Source of the DNA: an uncultured Clostridia bacterium
Lineage (GTDB): Bacteria > Bacillota > Clostridia > Lachnospirales > Lachnospiraceae
Length of the DNA: 10,011 nt
NCBI GenBank assembly: GCA_946623485.1
Contig: CAMORF010000051.1
Coordinates: forward strand, 1-10,011
Direction of reading: 5' to 3'
The translations under genes and the position numbers were made by a program. The notes under the pieces were generated by a model, which did no database searches, was not told the origin of the DNA, and saw nothing but the letters and a program-made list of their open reading frames with translations. Positions 1,780-9,697 of the stretch are shown here, in pieces; positions within the stretch are counted from its first letter, which is position 1; the number at the start of each line of letters is the position of its first letter.

Positions 1780-3468
1780 ATGAACAGATTCATTTCCAAC
1801 AGACATGGATACCGCCGGGTGCTGATGTTGATGCTTGTGCTGGTGAGCGTGTTTTTGTCCGCGTGTTCCTCCGGCTCCCATAAGGATGCCACGACAGAGC
1901 CGGAACCCGGGCAGGAGCCTTCGGAGGATCCTTCGCGCTATCTGATTGCCATTGAGGACGAGCCTGACACGGTGGACTTTCAGTGTACGACGATTCATTA
2001 TACCATTGCCCAGAATGTGTTTGACCGTCTGGTTGAGATGGAGAATGACGAGGAGGGAAATGCTCTGATCAGGCCTTCCCTTGCGCAAAGCTGGGAGATC
2101 TCCGGGGACCGGCGCACCTATACCTTTCATCTGCGAGAAGGAGTCAGGTTCAGCAACGGCTCGGCGCTGACGGCTGCTGACGTCTTGTATACATTTACCC
2201 GGCTGCTGACCCACCCGGATACCTGCAACCGGGATATCATTGAGAATATCGTCGGCGCAGACCGCCTGGAGGCAGGCGAGACAAACCATCTGGAAGGCTT
2301 CCAGGTGCTGGGGGATCTCGATTTCTCAATCACCCTTGAGGCACCCTTTGAGGCTTTCCTCGCCTCCCTGTCCATGCCAGGCGCTTCCATTCTGGACGAT
2401 GAGACCACGCGGGAAGCAGGCACCCGTTTCGGGACAGACCCGGAATGGACCATCGGGACAGGCCCCTTCATTCTGCAGGAATGGGTGCCGGGAAAGGGCA
2501 TGCTTCTGAAGGCAAATGCGGACTGCTGGCAGGGTGCGCCGCGCTGCGCAGGATTGAACCTGCGTTTCCTGACCGATCCGGAAGAGATCCGGCTGATGTT
2601 TGAAAACGGCGGGCTGGACATCCTGAATCTGGATGACGTGGGAAGAGCCTCCGAATACTTTATGCACGGAGATATCTATCAGGACAGGCTTTACAGTGTC
2701 CGGCGGATCAGCATTACTTATATTGCCCTGAATGAATCAGTTGCCCCGCTGGATGACGTGCGAGTCAGGAAAGCGTTGCAGTATTCCATCAACCGTCCCA
2801 TCCTGCTGGACGTCGGATACAGCGGGAGGGGGCAGGTGGAGAACGGGATCATGCCCCAGGGACTGTATGGGTGCAATCCGGATCTTGACGAGATCCCCTA
2901 TTCGGCGGAGGATGCAAAAAAACTCCTGCGGGAGGCAGGCTATCCGGACGGGTTTTCCCTGACCTTCAGCGTGAGTTCCGCCACCTCCTTAAGTGAACTA
3001 TCCATGATCCGGGCAGCCGTATCCATGTGGGAAAAGATCGGCGTACACGCAGGGGTGGAAATCCTGCCTGACAGCCGTTTCATGGAACAAAGGAAAAGCG
3101 GCAGCCTTGCCTGCTACTGCGCAACATGGACCGCAGACATCAATGATCCGGACAACTTCTTCTATACATTCTTTGGCAGTGAAGAAAACACCCGGTTCCG
3201 GAGCCTTTGCTATCCGCGCGAAGACATCATGGAACGGATCCGCGATGCCCGTATGATCGCAGACCCGGATGCGCGCGTCCGGGAGTACCGGGAGCTGGAG
3301 AAAACGATCGTCCAGGAGGATGCAGCCTGGATCCCGCTGTTCTCCAGGCTTTACACCTATGTTTCTTCAACGCGGCTGGAGGGGCTGCATCACTCCTGGA
3401 ACGGATCGGTCAAAAACAGATACCGGGACATGTCTGTCACAGATTCTCATGAGGAGAAGAAGCGATGA
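1780..3468 (+). CDS. Family 5 extracellular solute-binding lipoprotein (oligopeptide/dipeptide type)
   Basis: A 562-aa protein expected to be anchored outside the membrane and to bind a peptide or similar small ligand. A basic N-terminus (Arg-8, Arg-12, Arg-13), a hydrophobic stretch at 14-27 and the lipobox LSAC place lipidation at Cys29. The SBP_bac_5 fold shows family motifs: FSNGSALTAADVLYTFTRLL (about 124-143), TGTGPFILQEW near 226-236, LDDVRVRKALQYSINR near 324-339 and YSAEDAKKLLREAGYPDG near 374-391. Length fits the DppA/OppA family. In transporters such proteins hand ligand to a permease, but no permease or ATPase gene is here; the stop codon overlaps the start of a Cache-GGDEF-EAL receptor by ATGA, implying translational coupling. 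I infer it is a sensory accessory protein for that receptor, though it could also serve a distant transporter. The ligand cannot be read from sequence. Confidence 0.92.
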   Translation: MNRFISNRHGYRRVLMLMLVLVSVFLSACSSGSHKDATTEPEPGQEPSEDPSRYLIAIEDEPDTVDFQCTTIHYTIAQNVFDRLVEMENDEEGNALIRPSLAQSWEISGDRRTYTFHLREGVRFSNGSALTAADVLYTFTRLLTHPDTCNRDIIENIVGADRLEAGETNHLEGFQVLGDLDFSITLEAPFEAFLASLSMPGASILDDETTREAGTRFGTDPEWTIGTGPFILQEWVPGKGMLLKANADCWQGAPRCAGLNLRFLTDPEEIRLMFENGGLDILNLDDVGRASEYFMHGDIYQDRLYSVRRISITYIALNESVAPLDDVRVRKALQYSINRPILLDVGYSGRGQVENGIMPQGLYGCNPDLDEIPYSAEDAKKLLREAGYPDGFSLTFSVSSATSLSELSMIRAAVSMWEKIGVHAGVEILPDSRFMEQRKSGSLACYCATWTADINDPDNFFYTFFGSEENTRFRSLCYPREDIMERIRDARMIADPDARVREYRELEKTIVQEDAAWIPLFSRLYTYVSSTRLEGLHHSWNGSVKNRYRDMSVTDSHEEKKR

Positions 3469-6400
3469 AGATACATACCATTCGATTTAAAATTACGGCC
3501 ATCACCCTTGCCGTGATTCTTGCGACCGTCCTGGGGGTCATCGCTGTCTGCTATGCTCCGGTCCGGACGGTGACGGACCATGAGTCCGTTGAGATGATGC
3601 GTCTCATCGGGCAGGATACGCAGAACATCCTGAATCAGTATTTTTCCAGCATAGAGCAGGCTGTGGAAATGACCGCGAGTGAAGCGATCGAATCCCTGGA
3701 CAGTGTGGTCCTGGCCGAATGCGGCGGCGCGGGAACCTATGCGGCGGGCAGCACGAAGACGAAGGAGCAGGAAAACCGGCTGGACGCTTACCTGGCCGTA
3801 TACTGCAGCCAGATTCAGGATACCTTCCAAAGCGTCGCCAGCCATACGTATGGCAGTATCACCTATTATTACTGCATCAATCCGGAAGTCAGCGAGAATG
3901 TGCACGGCTTCTTTTATTCCCGGGTCGGAAAAGCAGGCTTTGTTGGACGGGAACCCCTGGATGCAAGAACACTGGATCCGAAGGATAAAGAACACACTAC
4001 CTGGTATTACACACCGATCGAGCGCGGCCGGCCCTCGTGGGTAGGTCCGTATACTGCTCATTTTCTGGATGAGATATGGATCTGCTCCTATCTGGTACCG
4101 ATCTATAATATGGGCACGCTGATCGGCGTGCTGGGGATGGATATCCCGGTTGACACCATGGTGGAGCAGGTGCGGCCGATCAAGGTCTATGAGACAGGAT
4201 TTGCCAGCCTGTGTGACGCAAGCGGCCACATATTCTATCATCCGAACCTGAGCCAGGGGATTGTCCCGGAGCTTTCAGATCCCTCCGTTTCTGATATGAT
4301 ACTGCAAAATGAAAGCAGCGGCGATACCATGATCCGTTACACGGCAGAGGGGGAGAAGCGGCAGATGTCGTTTTCCACCCTGCAAAATGGAATGAAGCTG
4401 GTCATCACCGCGCCGGTAAAGGAGATCAACGCGCCATGGATCTCATTGGTCAACCGGATCCTGCTGATCCTGATCGCTGCCATTGTCCTCTTCTTCACGG
4501 TTTTGATGATCGCCCTGACTGCTACCACCCGTCCCCTGCAGCGGCTGACATCCGCAGCCCGGAAGCTGGCCGCGGCGGATTATGATGTTGAGCTGGATTA
4601 TAAAGGCAAAGATGAGGTCGGAGAGCTGACGGATGCCTTCCGCCTGATGCGGGATAAGCAAAAGGAATACATCGATGACCTCAATCGCCGGATCTATACG
4701 GATGACCTGACCGGGCTTCCGAACATGCGCTCCTTCTTTTTGCTGGCGCTGGAACACAAGGCTTCCATGCTTGAGGCAGGGAAAAAACCGGCGCTTCTGT
4801 ATATTAACCTGATCGGCATGAAGCATTTCAACCGCCAGTACGGGTTTGAGGAGGGAAACCGGCTGCTTTGCGCATTTGCAGAGATTCTGAAGGATCACTA
4901 CGGCAGGAGGCATGTGTGCCGGTTCAGCCTGGATCATTTCGCCGCAGTGGTCGAGGAACAAGGCCTGGAGAAGGAACTGCATGAGATCTTCGATGCGTGC
5001 CAGGAGATCAACGATCAAAGGTCGCTGCCTGTCCGGGTGGGAATCTACCAGAACAGCATCGAAGACGTCGATGTCAGCGTTGCCTGCGACAGGGCAAAGT
5101 ACGCCTGTGACCTTCGGAGAAAGACTTTTGTCTCCGGTTTCACCTATTTCAGAAAGGGAATGCAGGAGCAGCTCCTGAAGGCACGCTATATCGTCAACCA
5201 CCTGGATCAGGCGTTATCTGAGCAGTGGGTACAGGTTTTTTACCAGCCTCTGGTCAGGGCCGTGAACGGCAAGGTCTGTGATGAGGAAGCCCTCGCGCGG
5301 TGGATAGACCCAACCTGGGGAATGCTGTCCCCGGGAGAATTCATTCCCGCTTTGGAGGAGGCCGGGCTGATCTACCGGCTGGATCTGTATGTGCTGGATC
5401 AGATCCTGGAGAAGCTTCTCCATCAAAAAGAGGTGGGGCTGGCAGTTGTCCCCCATTCCGTAAATCTTTCCCGTTCGGATTTCGATGCGTGTGACATCGT
5501 GGAGGAGATCCGCAGCCGGGTGGATCAGGCAGGGATCGCGCGTGACAGGATCACGATCGAGATTACCGAGAGCATCATCGGGAGCAATTTTGATTTTATG
5601 AAACAGCAGATCGAACGCTTCCGGTCTCTTGGATTCCCCGTATGGATGGATGATTTCGGCAGCGGTTATTCTTCCCTGGATGTTCTGGAGAGCATCCGGT
5701 TTGACCTGATCAAATTTGACATGAGTTTCATGAAGAAGCTCGATGATGGCAAGGATGGCAAGATTATCCTGACAAAGCTGATGGAGATGGCGACGGCGAT
5801 CGGCGTGGATACGGTATGTGAGGGCGTTGAGACCGAGGCACAGAAGCAGTTCCTCCAGGAGATCGGATGCTCCAAGCTTCAGGGGTATTACTATTGCAAG
5901 CCGATCCCCCTGTCCGAGATCATTGAACGGAACCGGAAGGGAATCCAGATCGGATATGAAAACCAGGAGGAGTCCGCTTATTATGAAGCGGTGGGGAGGG
6001 TCAATCTCTATGATCTTGATGTGATCACGTCAGGTGAGGATGGCATGTTCCAGCATTCCTTCAATACGCTGCCCATGGGGATCGTGGAGATCCGTGGAGA
6101 TGCTGCGCGCTTTGTGCGCAGCAACCAGTCTTACCGGGATTTCCTCCGGCGTTTCTTCGACATAGAGCTGTCAGGCCTTGGAGATGCATTTATCCGGTAT
6201 CATTCCGGCTTCCTCTGTCGTGTGATCCAATACTGCTCGGAGATGAGCGGACGTGCCTTCTTCGATGAAACGATGCCGGACGGATATGTAGTGCACACTT
6301 ACATTCGGAGGGTCAGCACCAATCCGGTCAAGGGAGATATCGCGGCCGCCATCGCGATCCTCTCTATCACAGAGCCGGAGGAGGGTACGTCCTACGCGGA

Positions 6401-6767
6401 CATCGCAAGGGCGCTTGCCGCAGACTATTATAATATCTATGTGATTGATCTGGACACAGAGCATTTCATCGAATATACCTCTCAGGTCGGCAGGGAAGAT
6501 CTGGCGGTAGAGCGTCACGGCGAACAGTTCTTCGCGGCGGTGAAACGGGATGTGGCCACACGGATCTACGAGGCGGACAGGGCTCCTTTCCTGAGTGTCT
6601 TCACAAAAGAAAACCTCATCCGGATGCTGGATGAGACGGGTGTTTTTACAACGACGTACCGCCTGATCGACACCGGTGTCCCGGTGTATGCCAACATGAA
6701 GATTACGCGCATGCCGGGCGGAAACCGGATCATCATGGGCATCAGTATCATTGAAGCGCCGCAATAA
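3465..6767 (+). CDS. Cache-HAMP-GGDEF(degenerate)-EAL-PAS receptor, probable c-di-GMP phosphodiesterase
   Basis: An 1100-aa membrane receptor expected to hydrolyse cyclic di-GMP in response to an extracellular signal. Order: helix 9-31; Cache-like extracellular domain about 35-325; helix 327-352; HAMP about 353-405; GGDEF-like domain about 405-560; EAL about 570-820; two PAS-like segments about 860-970 and 978-1098. The GGDEF position reads SLDHF (488-492), so cyclase activity is unlikely, though GTP could still bind and regulate. The EAL domain keeps E608 (EAL), N667, E699 and E702 (EITE), D729-D730 in DDFGSGYSSL, K750, E786 and Q806, so it should be active. The Cache domain has GPYTAHF where amino-acid-binding dCache domains usually have a Y-x-D, suggesting another ligand or indirect sensing. 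The start overlaps the lipoprotein stop; a gaggagaag ribosome site lies inside the upstream gene. The last segment (ADYYNIYVIDLDTEHFIEY) resembles a domain that in related proteins often precedes a GGDEF domain, but here the protein ends. Confidence 0.93.
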   Translation: MKIHTIRFKITAITLAVILATVLGVIAVCYAPVRTVTDHESVEMMRLIGQDTQNILNQYFSSIEQAVEMTASEAIESLDSVVLAECGGAGTYAAGSTKTKEQENRLDAYLAVYCSQIQDTFQSVASHTYGSITYYYCINPEVSENVHGFFYSRVGKAGFVGREPLDARTLDPKDKEHTTWYYTPIERGRPSWVGPYTAHFLDEIWICSYLVPIYNMGTLIGVLGMDIPVDTMVEQVRPIKVYETGFASLCDASGHIFYHPNLSQGIVPELSDPSVSDMILQNESSGDTMIRYTAEGEKRQMSFSTLQNGMKLVITAPVKEINAPWISLVNRILLILIAAIVLFFTVLMIALTATTRPLQRLTSAARKLAAADYDVELDYKGKDEVGELTDAFRLMRDKQKEYIDDLNRRIYTDDLTGLPNMRSFFLLALEHKASMLEAGKKPALLYINLIGMKHFNRQYGFEEGNRLLCAFAEILKDHYGRRHVCRFSLDHFAAVVEEQGLEKELHEIFDACQEINDQRSLPVRVGIYQNSIEDVDVSVACDRAKYACDLRRKTFVSGFTYFRKGMQEQLLKARYIVNHLDQALSEQWVQVFYQPLVRAVNGKVCDEEALARWIDPTWGMLSPGEFIPALEEAGLIYRLDLYVLDQILEKLLHQKEVGLAVVPHSVNLSRSDFDACDIVEEIRSRVDQAGIARDRITIEITESIIGSNFDFMKQQIERFRSLGFPVWMDDFGSGYSSLDVLESIRFDLIKFDMSFMKKLDDGKDGKIILTKLMEMATAIGVDTVCEGVETEAQKQFLQEIGCSKLQGYYYCKPIPLSEIIERNRKGIQIGYENQEESAYYEAVGRVNLYDLDVITSGEDGMFQHSFNTLPMGIVEIRGDAARFVRSNQSYRDFLRRFFDIELSGLGDAFIRYHSGFLCRVIQYCSEMSGRAFFDETMPDGYVVHTYIRRVSTNPVKGDIAAAIAILSITEPEEGTSYADIARALAADYYNIYVIDLDTEHFIEYTSQVGREDLAVERHGEQFFAAVKRDVATRIYEADRAPFLSVFTKENLIRMLDETGVFTTTYRLIDTGVPVYANMKITRMPGGNRIIMGISIIEAPQ

Positions 6768-6806
6768 TCCGGAAATAAATCGTAGCGAATCGTCACAGTC
6801 AGCACG

Positions 6807-6860
6807 CAACCAGGTCCTATTCTTTCATTTGTGGCTGAATAGGAGCTGGTTGTAATTTGT
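6807..6860 (+). terminator. Hairpin terminator of the receptor operon
   Basis: The arms at 6807-6822 and 6837-6852 pair over 16 positions with one mismatch (caaccag...tcctattc against gaatagga...ctggttg), with a 14-base loop. The tail taatttgtta is only moderately T-rich. It lies 40 bases after the receptor stop codon. Confidence 0.6.
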
Positions 6861-6892
6861 TACAGCGCAGTGTCCAGGGAGGAAATGAGTAT

Positions 6893-7157
6893 ATGGTCAG
6901 GCGTGCTTTCTTTCTCAGATTGCTGGGGGTCCTGGAACGCTTTTCCCCGGATTGGGCCTCCCGGCTTCAGATCCGGATTTTACATGACATGACAGCACGG
7001 GCATTTGCCCGGAAAGAAAGCAGATCAGGTCACGATGCTGGAAGCAGGAAAGGAATTCAAGCCTTTTGCGCTTTCCGTGAACAGGCTTGCCGGGTTCCGG
7101 AAAACAGGGATGTTTTTTGACGAACGGATGATCCGGATGCTGCTTCCCAATATGTAA
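6893..7157 (+). pseudogene. Small gene remnant, apparently frameshifted
   Basis: A good ribosome site (gggaggaaatgag) precedes the ATG at 6893. The first frame reads like a real protein: MVRRAFFLRLLGVLERFSP, then RLQIRILHDMTARAF, then becomes low-quality and stops at 7120. A second frame, offset by one base, is protein-like from about 7015 to the stop at 7157 (KEFKPFALSVNRLAGF and FFDERMIRMLLPNM). Joining the frames near 7005-7020 would give about 87 residues. I do not recognise the family. The alternatives are two unrelated small frames or a sequencing error. It ends 9 bases from the bioY stop codon, converging on it. The rest of the 6768-7166 gap holds the terminator and this remnant only. 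Confidence 0.4.
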
Positions 7158-7166
7158 GTCTCCGCA

Positions 7167-7763
7167 TCAGGCGGAAGGCCGGATGCCGGCATATTTGCGG
7201 ATCCGGGGCGCAATCATCAGAGTGACCGCGATCTTGGCCAGGTCGGGGAGAATGAACGGTATGACACACCAGCCGAGCACCGCGGCCAGGGAGACCGGGC
7301 CATTTCCTCTGGAATAAACGACCATGAACCAGGCAGTCCCGAACGCATAACAGATCAGAAGGCCCAAAAGCATGGAGACCAGCTGGATGACGCGTCCATT
7401 TCCAAACAGATGCTCAAAGCCCCACATGAACAGCGCGGAGAACAGGAAACCGATGATGTATCCGCCGGTATTGCCGAGCAGGATGCCGATCCCGCCGGTA
7501 AATCCGGAAAAAACAGGAAGCCCGATGGCACCGAGCAGGATATACACAAGAACGCTCAGGGTTCCGCGTTTTCCGCCCAGGATGCTTACCGCGAGAAATA
7601 CGCCCATGGTCTGGAGCGTAAAGGGAACCGTAGTCTGGATGGAGATCCAGGAACAGACCGTGATGAGCACCGCAAACAGGGCGATGTACACGAGGTCATA
7701 GGTTTTTGAAGCACGTTTTATGGTGCTGGTTTCTTTTGAAAATGATTCTGCAGATGATGTCAT
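7167..7763 (-). CDS. bioY: Biotin ECF transporter substrate-binding subunit BioY
   Basis: A 198-aa integral membrane protein that binds biotin outside and works with the shared ECF energy module (EcfA, EcfA', EcfT), which is not encoded here. Family hallmarks: TVPFTLQTMGVFLAVSILGG near 45-64, GLPVFSGFTGGIGILLGNTG near 81-100 followed by GYIIGF, and a final helix with PDLAK (173-177). About six hydrophobic segments are visible, and the length is normal for BioY. The start at 7763 is fixed by GGGAGGA (plus-strand 7769-7775) five bases upstream. The gene stands alone with a leader of about 300 bases that holds seven tandem repeats, and a BirA-type operator at 8075-8106 predicts repression when biotin is plentiful. 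No clear terminator lies beyond the stop codon; a weak stem (tccgc/gcgga) overlaps it. Confidence 0.95.
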   Translation of the reverse strand: MTSSAESFSKETSTIKRASKTYDLVYIALFAVLITVCSWISIQTTVPFTLQTMGVFLAVSILGGKRGTLSVLVYILLGAIGLPVFSGFTGGIGILLGNTGGYIIGFLFSALFMWGFEHLFGNGRVIQLVSMLLGLLICYAFGTAWFMVVYSRGNGPVSLAAVLGWCVIPFILPDLAKIAVTLMIAPRIRKYAGIRPSA

Positions 7764-7780
7764 ATGATTCCTCCCATGTT

Positions 7781-7997
7781 TTGCAGACTGCGTGATCTCT
7801 TGCGTAATTGTCTGCAGACTGCATGATCTCTTGCGTGATTGCTTGCCGACTGCGTGGTTCCTTGCGTGATTGTTTGCTGACTGCGTGATCTCTTGCGTGA
7901 TTGTCTGCAGACTGCGTGATTTCTTGCGTGATTGTCTGCAGACTGCGTGATTCCCTGCATGATTGTTTGCCGGCTTCGTGATTTCCCGTGCAATTCA
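7781..7997. repeat. Seven contiguous 31-bp tandem repeats in the bioY leader
   Basis: Units begin at 7781, 7812, 7843, 7874, 7905, 7936 and 7967, exactly 31 bp apart and without spacers. On the plus strand a typical unit is ctgcagac, tgcgtgat, ctct, tgcgtgat, tgt, so the 8-mer tgcgtgat occurs twice per unit. Units 1, 2, 4, 5 and 6 are the closest; the last is degraded. On the minus strand, the direction of bioY transcription, the unit has no stop codon in any frame. The array starts 17 bp upstream of the bioY start codon and would be transcribed as part of its leader. Its role is unknown. Confidence 0.95.
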
Positions 7998-8338: not shown

Positions 8339-8968
8339 ATGATGAGCAGAGTGATTCTGTTGAACGGCAGCCCGCACATTCATGGATGTACGGCTGCGGC
8401 ACTGGAAGAGATGATCAGGGTATTTGATTCTGAAGGTGTGGAGACTGAACTGATCCAGGTAGGGAACAAAGCGATCCGCGGATGCATCGCCTGCGGAAAA
8501 TGCAGTGAGACGGGGAAGTGTGTGTTTGATGACCTTGTCAATGAAACAGCGCCGAAGTTTGAGCAGGCGGATGGACTGGTCGTCGGCAGCCCGGTTTACT
8601 ATGCTTCTCCGAACGGAACCATCCTGTCCTTCCTGGACCGCCTGTTTTACAGCACTTCCTTTTCAAAACACATGAAGGTCGGCGCCGCGGTGGTCAGCTG
8701 CAGGCGCGGCGGGAATACAGCAAGTTTCGATGTACTGAACAAGTATTTCACGATCAGCGGCATGCCGGTTGCTTCCAGCACCTACTGGAACCAGGTGCAT
8801 GGTTTTTCGGCTGAGGATGTGAAGAAGGATCTCGAAGGACTTCAGACGATGCGGAACCTGGCAAGAAACATGTCATTCATGATCCGCGCGATTGACGCCG
8901 CGAAAAAGAACGGCGGATGTCCGCGGCAGGAGCAGGACATGTTCACCAGTTTTCCGGATGGAAAATAG
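8339..8968 (+). CDS. Flavodoxin-fold NAD(P)H-dependent oxidoreductase, iron-sulfur flavoprotein-like
   Basis: A 209-aa soluble protein predicted to bind FMN and carry out electron transfer; the substrate is unknown. The N-terminus has the flavodoxin-like phosphate-binding loop LLNGSPHIHGCTAAAL (7-22), and GSPVYYASPNGT (83-94) is the second flavin-contacting motif of the NADPH-dependent FMN reductase family. Cysteines at 49, 52, 55 and 61 form CX2CX2CX5C, close to the compact cysteine motif that binds a 4Fe-4S cluster in Methanosarcina-type iron-sulfur flavoprotein (Isf). Many clostridial relatives have these cysteines without a known cluster. The ribosome site ggaggagg (8330-8337) lies very near the ATG at 8339; the adjacent ATG at 8342 has more normal spacing and may be the true start. 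It may share a transcript with the exonuclease gene 66 bases downstream. Confidence 0.88.
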   Translation: MMSRVILLNGSPHIHGCTAAALEEMIRVFDSEGVETELIQVGNKAIRGCIACGKCSETGKCVFDDLVNETAPKFEQADGLVVGSPVYYASPNGTILSFLDRLFYSTSFSKHMKVGAAVVSCRRGGNTASFDVLNKYFTISGMPVASSTYWNQVHGFSAEDVKKDLEGLQTMRNLARNMSFMIRAIDAAKKNGGCPRQEQDMFTSFPDGK

Positions 8969-9034
8969 AAACCGGCAGGATTGGCTTTTCTTCCCGGCCG
9001 GGTATCACAGATAAGAAAGGCTAAGGAACCGGAA

Positions 9035-9697
9035 ATGAAGGTAAAAATCGTAATCGATGTTGAGATGTGCCTCGTCCAGAAAAGCTATGAGTGGAAGGAC
9101 TATCCGTACGAACACGAGATCATCCAGATCGGAGCTGTTATGATGGATGAGGAATATGAGATTGTGGATGAATTTTCATCCTTCGTGAATCCGCAGTACG
9201 GCAGGATTGACCATTTTATCCGGAAGCTGACAGGGATCAGTGAAAAGGATATTGTGGAAGCCCCGCCGCTGGAGGAAGTCCTGCGGCAGATGCTTGCCTG
9301 GATCGGCGGCCGGGAAGCGGTTTTTTATTCCTGGAGCGTGACCGATTATAAGCAGATCGTCCGGGAGATTCATGCCAAAGGGATGGACGAGGGAGAGATG
9401 GCGGTGCTTCTGGAGAAGGATCACTGGGTGGATTATCAGCCGGAAGCGGGAAAACGCTTTGACAAAAGATGGCGGCTTGCGCTGGAGGATGCCCTCATGC
9501 TCGCTGAGGTCGAGCCGGAGGGAAAACAGCACGACGGCCTGGTTGACGCGAGGAATACGGCAAGACTGATCGCAAAGATGGAGCGGAATCCGGATTCTCA
9601 TTTTCTGCAGGACCGCCTGCAGGAGGAGAAAAATGACGCTCCGCTGGGTACATCCCTGGGAAGCCTGCTGAAACAATATAACGGGATTCAAAAATGA
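9035..9697 (+). CDS. DEDDh 3'-5' exonuclease (RNase T / DNA polymerase III epsilon-like fold)
   Basis: A 220-aa cytoplasmic nuclease predicted to remove nucleotides from 3' ends of RNA or single-stranded DNA using two metal ions. The DEDDh residues are visible: D8 and E10 in VIDVEMC, D104 in SWSVTDYKQI, and H166 with D171 in HDGLVDARNTARL. LTGI at 65-68 in the Exo I/II region is also typical. It is a stand-alone domain, similar in size to KapD-like and Eri-like exonucleases, not a polymerase proofreading subunit. An open frame extends upstream to a TTG at 8981, but the ATG at 9035, behind aaggaaccggaa, begins exactly where homology-like sequence starts and is preferred. The C-terminal 35 residues are polar and may be flexible. 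The physiological substrate is unknown. Confidence 0.88.
   Translation: MKVKIVIDVEMCLVQKSYEWKDYPYEHEIIQIGAVMMDEEYEIVDEFSSFVNPQYGRIDHFIRKLTGISEKDIVEAPPLEEVLRQMLAWIGGREAVFYSWSVTDYKQIVREIHAKGMDEGEMAVLLEKDHWVDYQPEAGKRFDKRWRLALEDALMLAEVEPEGKQHDGLVDARNTARLIAKMERNPDSHFLQDRLQEEKNDAPLGTSLGSLLKQYNGIQK

Follow-up and report, generated by a model that had tools for sequence, protein, structure and literature searches.

Introduction

According to one survey, receptors driven by solute-binding proteins (SBPs) represent a general mechanism that includes cyclic di-GMP (c-di-GMP) cyclases and phosphodiesterases (PMC9602780). Control of c-di-GMP by an SBP is described for NspS-MbaA of Vibrio cholerae and Sinorhizobium meliloti (PMC9993111). 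XylFII-LytS and CuaD-CuaSR are clostridial systems; in the latter, the gene of the predicted lipoprotein CuaD accompanies that of its receptor and stands next to the gene of the SBP that serves the transporter itself (PMC10384115). A periplasmic chitin-binding SBP (CBP) of Vibrio controls the hybrid sensor kinase ChiS (PMC10208484), and GlnH-GlnX-PknG of the Gram-positive Corynebacterium glutamicum combines an SBP with a transmembrane protein (PMC9769921). The present analysis concerns a window of 10,011 nucleotides (nt), positions 1 to 10,011 of contig CAMORF010000051.1 from an uncultured Clostridia bacterium (assembly GCA_946623485.1, a draft genome of 2.45 Mb, 73% complete), in which the gene of a family-5 SBP overlaps that of a transmembrane dCache-HAMP-GGDEF-EAL receptor.

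The two genes probably encode one sensory unit, in which a transport-derived SBP would set the receptor's breakdown of c-di-GMP. The lipoprotein would descend from a transporter's binding protein and, no longer taking part in transport, act as a membrane-anchored reader of an extracellular ligand. Its ligand-dependent open or closed state would be passed on by docking on the dCache domain of the receptor, and from there through HAMP and a degenerate GGDEF domain to an intact EAL domain; the ligand would thereby set the rate of c-di-GMP breakdown, upwards or downwards. SBP-driven receptors are already established, and what is new here is the combination of family-5 SBP, dCache domain, predicted phosphodiesterase output and Gram-positive host. 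No description of a family-5 SBP paired with a dCache-EAL receptor was found in the literature searched, whose coverage leaves out most subscription journals; PMC11237719 contains no SBP or GGDEF terms.

The Gene Pair and Its Predicted Output

The features of the pair, all on the + strand, are as follows.

1780-3468, +: family-5 solute-binding lipoprotein, 562 amino acids (aa); SBP_bac_5 at residues 97-470 (E 1.8e-79); in the receptor-linked SBP clade (100/99)
1780-1866, +: signal peptide and lipobox LSA-C (Cys29), from the sequence
3451-3468, +: coupling junction with a GAGGAG ribosome-binding-like site and ATGA overlap, from the sequence
3465-6767, +: transmembrane receptor, dCache-HAMP-GGDEF-EAL and a C-terminal region, 1100 aa, by Pfam
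3552-4454, +: extracellular dCache domain, about residues 30-330; dCache_1, match to structure 9HVJ (E 4e-37), pocket conservation
4524-4658, +: HAMP, residues 354-398 (E 1.8e-11)
4695-5033, +: degenerate GGDEF, residues 411-523 (E 5.5e-13), with SLDHF at residue 488
5196-5903, +: predicted EAL phosphodiesterase domain, residues 578-813 (E 1.8e-62), with its motif positions
5925-6767, +: C-terminal region, 280 aa, without significant match in the Pfam scan

The stop codon of the SBP gene and the start codon of the receptor gene overlap as ATGA at 3465-3468, and GAGGAG (3451-3456) lies 8 nt 5' of the receptor ATG. SBP_bac_5 (PF00496) is the sole Pfam match of the SBP, at 268 bits against a curated cut-off of 32.4, which places the protein in family 5; no PotD-like match, as in an NspS-type SBP, was found in it. 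The signal peptide ends in the lipobox LSAC, whose Cys29 has an aligned cysteine in 131 of the 148 SBPs of the receptor clade, and the lipobox pattern recurs in 99 of 120 SBP relatives among the matches listed. In the receptor, Pfam recognizes dCache_1, HAMP, GGDEF and EAL. The original prediction of a family-5 lipoprotein coupled through ATGA to an 1100-residue Cache receptor is thus borne out in its open reading frames (ORFs), overlap and domains.

All seven EAL motifs are present in the receptor (EEAL, NLS, EITES, DDFG, KFD, EGVE and QGY), and its GGDEF motif reads SLDHF rather than the GG[DE]EF of an active cyclase. Because the EAL motifs are intact and the GGDEF motif is degenerate, the predicted output is c-di-GMP breakdown. 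Among the 118 listed relatives that are long enough, DDFG and K occur in 118, EGVE in 117, EAL in 114 and NLS in 113.

Relatives of the N-terminal part (best 120 of 310 matches) mostly have lengths near 835, 975, 1110, 1243 or 1405 aa, with one of 1682, and because these lengths cluster, the C-terminal part seems to grow stepwise by about 130-160 aa per step. PAS matches occur in a longer receptor of 1588 aa (locus L060; survey loci are numbered L, genomes G and contigs of the source genome C). PF00496 was found in none of the same 120 relatives. An apparent SBP-receptor fusion (G526/L058, listed as a 1554-aa open frame) was rejected, as a TAG stop and a ribosome-binding-like site part the genes.

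Conservation of the Pair and Separation from Transport Genes

A first contig scan with the SBP yielded 23 loci, in 22 of which a dCache receptor ORF directly adjoins the SBP; the exception is L030 (Butyrivibrio AC2005). A second survey, whose sample overlaps with the first, covered 26 genome handles, including two duplicates with the same coordinates (G496 = G1320, G526 = G1314), and used the SBP (E 1e-100) and the Cache-HAMP part of the receptor as queries in genomes picked for SBP presence and not for neighbors. From its 38 SBP rows, two duplicates and seven SBPs of at most 41% identity (neighbors viewed for one) were set aside, leaving 29 distinct SBPs at 51-70% identity. A dCache receptor adjoins 28 of these 29, downstream in 26 and upstream in two, the latter being kinases (L027 and L039), as one would expect from the prediction that homologs of the two genes are not usually found apart.

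The receptor side gives the same picture. With a cut at E 1.4e-107, the Cache-HAMP search gave 32 rows, or 30 distinct matches once two duplicates are dropped. Of these, 27 are EAL-type, all with an observed EAL region, and the assembly interrupts two of them, L019 and L068. The SBP adjoins 26 of the 27, in L037, L038 and L069 as a fragment where the contig ends. The other three of the 30 matches, L061, L062 and L063, are cyclases with no family-5 SBP beside them. Below the E cut are two interrupted receptors, namely L078 (EAL-type, SBP-adjacent) and L065 (a cyclase, no SBP), and weaker Cache matches (<43%) are mostly cyclases among those fetched. In protein-database lists, which hold the best 120 of longer results for SBP and receptor alike, 19 of 119 listed SBP clusters have a longest contig exactly equal in size to that of one of 119 listed receptor clusters, compared with 0-1 in 11 shifted controls.

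The pair spans records labelled Lachnospiraceae, Oscillospiraceae and Erysipelotrichaceae, and its carriers are few, most of them bacteria of rumen and gut. The source genome shares its family, inferred to be Lachnospiraceae, with Butyrivibrio MC2021 and AE3009, since two same-family genomes (G526, G496) have coordinates identical to those of the genomes of L028 and L035. At the family level 2 of 200 genomes have close homologs (at least 54%), and at the order level 5 of 392, the source genome being counted in both, and at E 1e-140 the source genome stands alone among 391 class-level and 398 phylum-level genomes; these rarity counts refer to genome samples, and the order-, class- and phylum-level scans scored at most three candidates per genome.

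Neither an OppB/C permease nor an ATPase, as expected for an Opp/Dpp importer, is encoded with the SBP in the window: no relative of OppB, OppC or OppD was found there, and no permease or ATPase of the ATP-binding cassette type among the seven ORFs scanned with Pfam. The prediction that homologs of the lipoprotein would likewise lie apart from OppBCDF also held, in that no OppB/OppC was found within 4.4 kb of the 29 receptor-clade SBPs in the fetched flanks, some of which are very short (1 base on one side in L041, 146 in L024). The exception is L027, with OppB/OppC 4.4 kb off, inside the operon of its second SBP, and ATPase-like matches lie 1.7 to 7.5 kb from the SBP in L018, L027, L034 and L041. 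Inspected SBPs of at most 47% identity are mostly found with permeases: BPD_transp_1 genes follow those of L009-L013, L045 and the second SBP of L027, and OppB-like genes follow those of L043 and L059, the exceptions being the receptor-linked L042 and the second SBP of L019 (24% identical, at the locus edge), with no Opp gene seen. Of the six family-5 SBPs found in the source genome itself, those on C51 (the contig of the window), C48 and C197 have a receptor next to them, and those on C185, C310 and C102 have a permease or transporter-ATPase gene.

Phylogeny and Exchange of Receptor Type

In a tree of 41 SBPs, the receptor-linked proteins form one clade of 29 rows (100/99), in which L030 is the sole row without a receptor nearby, and permease-linked SBPs fall outside; in this tree the label "otherCache" also includes four EAL-type receptors that are truncated or interrupted (L019, L057, L068, L078). 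The cyclase-linked SBPs L032, L036 and L041 (C48 of the source genome) lie outside an inner clade of 26 rows (100/99), within which the kinase-linked SBPs L027 and L039 are nested among EAL-linked ones. In a tree of 46 Cache-HAMP sequences, one clade (100/99) unites the 26 EAL-type rows without exception, and the kinase Caches belong to another (100/100, 9 rows). Because the kinase-linked SBPs nest in the EAL-linked clade while their Caches belong to another lineage, the trees indicate that the SBP in Butyrivibrio changed receptor type, its partner having switched to a hybrid kinase of another Cache lineage. The SBP fragment of L040 shares 78% identity with the SBP of L027 along 134 residues, and its coupled partner is a dCache protein of this kinase Cache lineage with GGDEF and receiver domains. 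On contig C197 (L042:1-3854), an SBP that groups with permease-linked ones is ATGA-coupled to a dCache-SpoIIE phosphatase-type protein, which looks like a separate recruitment to a receptor; its dCache_1 match, at 40.6 bits, is below the cut-off of 45, and its branch is long.

Ligand Pocket of the SBP

DppA is among the nearest solved relatives of the SBP (5f1q, E 4e-49; 1dpp). Two places in the pocket were compared, the aspartate that we take to bind the peptide amine in DppA, which aligns to Asp453, and the arginine that presumably binds the peptide carboxylate, whose column was set by spacing in the alignment to solved relatives. Asp453 is kept in all 148 clade SBPs and in all eight SBPs outside the clade (seven permease-linked and L042). 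The presumed carboxylate place is Ser in 80 of the 148, Ala in 43, Thr in 18, Asn in 3 and Val, Lys or Gly in one each, with one gap, and Ser in 8/8 outside. Because none of the 148 clade SBPs has arginine at this place, unlike a DppA-type dipeptide binder, a classical dipeptide is an unlikely ligand to judge from these residues. The lack of arginine is common also to permease-linked relatives, and family 5 includes other ligand classes. The ligand may be a longer peptide, and an oligosaccharide or another compound is also possible; the peptide-like ligand of the original prediction was drawn from the family name, and the residue pattern lacks the arginine of dipeptide binders. No common ligand theme emerged among the ten neighbor genes scanned. 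Thirty-five positions show conservation of at least 95% within the clade and recur in at most one of the eight outside SBPs, and 14 of them are located at residues 59-87 and 543-549.

Counter-Evidence and Alternative Explanations

Several observations weigh against a single sensory unit acting through c-di-GMP breakdown. The SBP of L030 has no receptor nearby, and the EAL receptor of L060 has no SBP nearby, with a GH32 gene upstream instead. In the relatives, ExTE is found in 92/118 and QGY in 71/118, two patterns that are strict or for which the searched stretch is short. The source genome contains 25 BPD_transp_1 matches, so that the SBP could still serve a distant permease. In 38 SBP-receptor pairs, half of them matched by equal contig size only, SBP distances correlate with those of Cache (r 0.71) about as closely as Cache distances do with those of EAL within one polypeptide (0.685), which in itself favors the unit. 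They correlate also with GGDEF (0.702) and EAL (0.671), and each of the three values exceeds 500/500 permutations. Because the SBP correlates with EAL and GGDEF almost as well as with Cache, no contact-specific signal is apparent, and contact-specific co-evolution was rejected. Finally, a conserved Cache pocket, described below, allows a second, direct ligand.

The distant permease would imply that adjacency merely couples the expression of uptake and signaling, and family-5 SBPs are, after all, transporter parts. However, inspected Opp-type permease genes have SBPs of their own (L045, L043), OppB/OppC is missing from the fetched flanks of the 29 receptor-clade SBPs except in another SBP's operon, and the 35 clade-conserved positions differ in at least seven of the eight SBPs outside. 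We regard continued service to a permease encoded elsewhere as unlikely.

The uniform correlations would also be expected if the pair were simply co-inherited, by descent or by transfer, with products that never touch. However, the pair is kept across 51-70% SBP identity and three labelled families, with overlaps or short gaps; some clade SBPs have a cyclase or kinase receptor as their neighbor, and the SpoIIE receptor has a separate SBP. Adjacency without function is very improbable on this evidence. The dedicated SBP and c-di-GMP receptor unit of a Gram-positive cell, as originally predicted, is strengthened by the adjacency (28/29) and the lack of OppBCDF neighbors, and three of its parts are weaker, namely the peptide ligand, the reasoning for indirect sensing and the parallel with NspS-MbaA.

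The Cache Pocket and a Possible Second Input

The closest solved structure to the window Cache by sequence is 9HVJ, the A4 domain, which binds uracil in its distal module and acetate in its proximal module (PMC12415202). Residues were mapped through the alignment (chain number + 11). In the distal module, R116 corresponds to C137 of the window receptor, F129 to F150, T145 to L165, W160 to W180, Y176 to Y196, N178 to A198, N180 to F200 and D205 to D226; in the proximal module, Y225 corresponds to F246, H238 to H259, Y273 to Y292 and K280 to R299. The four uracil-specific residues R116, T145, N178 and N180 are thus all replaced, by C137, L165, A198 and F200, and the domain lacks the dCache_1UR signature. 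Among the 119 listed homologs, C137 is conserved in 119, L165 in 109, A198 in 99 and F200 in 93. The generic frame F150/W180/Y196/D226, common to the amine sensor McpX, is mostly kept.

The motif of PctA/CahR sensors of amino acids or autoinducer-2 (AI-2) comprises R126, W128, Y144, D146 and D173 of PctA, and rumen dCache receptors, including c-di-GMP enzymes, have been surveyed for AI-2 sensing (PMC9540692). The window has T178, W180, Y196, A198 and D226 at these places (the R126 column being set by spacing from W), and the full five-residue set occurs in none of the 119 listed homologs of the receptor. The original prediction correctly noted that the usual Y-x-D is missing (Y196-T-A198). Its reading of this as a sign of indirect sensing does not follow, since the nearest solved relative of the Cache senses uracil and acetate directly and the altered distal pocket is itself largely conserved. 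Because the nearest relative senses directly and the uracil set is replaced by another conserved set, direct sensing of another ligand is possible.

The Cache may therefore bind a small ligand of its own, in the distal or proximal pocket, to which the liganded SBP adds a second signal elsewhere, as an AND gate or as gain control. Such a dual input modifies the single-input explanation rather than replacing it, and the chances of the two overlap. The relation to A4, the kept frame and the invariant C137 favor it. So does the SBP-linked cyclase on contig C48, which keeps 7/8 uracil and 4/4 acetate residues; because it has both these residues and an SBP, SBP partnership and direct sensing appear compatible by sequence. 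The cyclases L061-L063 have the window-type pocket (C/F/L/W/Y/A/F-or-Y/D) without an adjoining family-5 SBP. However, conservation of the pocket could equally reflect folding or SBP docking, and within the locus set C137 is present in 21 of 23 readable EAL rows, L048 and L060 having Tyr instead, and positions 198 and 200 are much more variable (A in 11/23; F in 8/25 rows, 7 of them gaps). We consider dual input a plausible variant, somewhat short of an even chance.

The C/L/A/F pocket was also considered as a marker of SBP dependence and rejected, as SBP-adjacent receptors show at least three pocket types and L061-L063 share the pocket without a family-5 SBP nearby. An AA_permease_2 gene precedes three of the four cyclases without SBP (L061, L062, L065; the altered pocket of L065 is read in part), and a CotH/lamin-tail protein follows the L061 cyclase. 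A cyclase on contig C32 (L053:1728-3449) has all eight uracil-contact residues and no SBP, and is a candidate uracil-sensing diguanylate cyclase.

Opposing Enzymes and a Possible Portable Ligand Reader

Enzymes of opposite predicted activity recur beside the SBP. On contig C48, a dCache-HAMP-GGDEF protein with intact GGDEF stands behind the SBP, and a PAS-GGDEF-EAL protein comes next; in L032, a GGDEF-EAL protein comes after the SBP and cyclase; and in L047, 15 nt part a GGDEF protein, whose dCache match (43 bits) is just short of the cut-off of 45, from the downstream SBP that precedes the EAL receptor. Taken with the exchange of receptor type, this arrangement raises the possibility, which we offer tentatively, of a portable ligand reader: in gut Firmicutes, one conserved family-5 SBP clade would act on interchangeable dCache receptors (phosphodiesterase, cyclase or hybrid kinase), several with the opposing enzyme in the operon, while the receptors keep a metabolite pocket of their own, so that each unit would combine two signals from outside the cell.

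Opposing c-di-GMP enzymes are also linked to a second SBP family. Fusions of SBP_bac_3 with GGDEF-EAL lie directly upstream of dCache-HAMP-GGDEF-like cyclases (L067:903-5442, L077:3032-7599); Pfam was run on these two fusions, and those of L074 and L075 are alike by N-terminal sequence.

Surroundings of the Pair in the Window

The remaining features of the window are as follows.

233-1348, +: diguanylate cyclase, membrane-type, GGDEF intact, upstream of the pair, by Pfam
1490-1530, +: terminator-like hairpin between this cyclase and the pair (RNA fold of 1485-1545, -24.2 kcal/mol)
1696-1701, +: TATAAT, a weak candidate -10 element from the sequence, unsupported by the promoter scan
about 6798-6863, +: long hairpin 3' of the receptor (RNA fold of 6795-6865, -27.9 kcal/mol)
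7167-7763, -: BioY gene, by Pfam
8339-8968, +: gene of an FMN reductase-type protein, by Pfam
8981-9697, +: exonuclease gene, by Pfam

The pair had been predicted to have its own promoter and terminator. Hairpins do bound it on both sides, the second with a poor T tail (GTAATTTG), and neither appears in the list of a consensus terminator scan; the promoter is weakly backed, as TATAAT is present yet a consensus scan found no promoter-like site on the + strand from 1349 to 1780. The window contains no Rfam match at the gathering threshold. BioY is presumably a biotin-transport protein, and just upstream of its gene, at 7780-7982, a 31-bp unit is repeated in tandem about 6.5 times (85% matches). 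Between the receptor and BioY lies a small ORF (6857-7120) without family match, possibly a gene remnant.

Significance and Comparison with Known Systems

Few ligands of c-di-GMP enzymes are known, least of all those of Gram-positive bacteria in gut and rumen, and the pairing points to an unexplored route by which Gram-positive gut bacteria may sense an external cue. Since the unit would read its ligand with a separate soluble domain, open to purification and screening, and since cultured Butyrivibrio strains can act as hosts, it would become directly testable which outside cue sets c-di-GMP in these anaerobes. A single SBP clade with interchanged receptor types would also illustrate how sensory specificity and output evolve separately.

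Each known system shares part of this arrangement. The dCache_1UR sensors (A4/9HVJ, H8, M8) are the closest solved Caches by sequence and have generic pocket residues in common with the window, but all four uracil-specific residues are replaced there; the main text of the paper on these sensors has no mention of solute-binding or substrate-binding. GlnH-GlnX-PknG differs from the window pair in its glutamine-related SBP and in its output through a protein kinase rather than c-di-GMP. CBP, which we take to be a family-5 SBP itself, and ChiS resemble the kinase variants L027 and L039, whereas receptor and output differ from those of the window, CBP-ChiS having no GGDEF-EAL protein. XylFII is reportedly a clostridial SBP that binds the extracellular sensor domain of LytS, and like it and CuaD-CuaSR, the window pair would offer a clostridial SBP to an extracellular sensor domain; those systems have sugar SBPs and histidine kinases and no c-di-GMP enzyme.

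The parallel with NspS-MbaA, proposed originally, holds in gene organization, since the SBP gene overlaps a membrane GGDEF-EAL gene (ATGA, with 26/27 EAL receptors SBP-adjacent). It does not extend to homology, because the SBP families differ: NspS is a PotD-like polyamine SBP, whereas the window SBP is a predicted lipoprotein of family 5, and the window has a dCache sensor, a degenerate GGDEF and Gram-positive hosts. NspS-MbaA is therefore best regarded as an analog of the pair described here.

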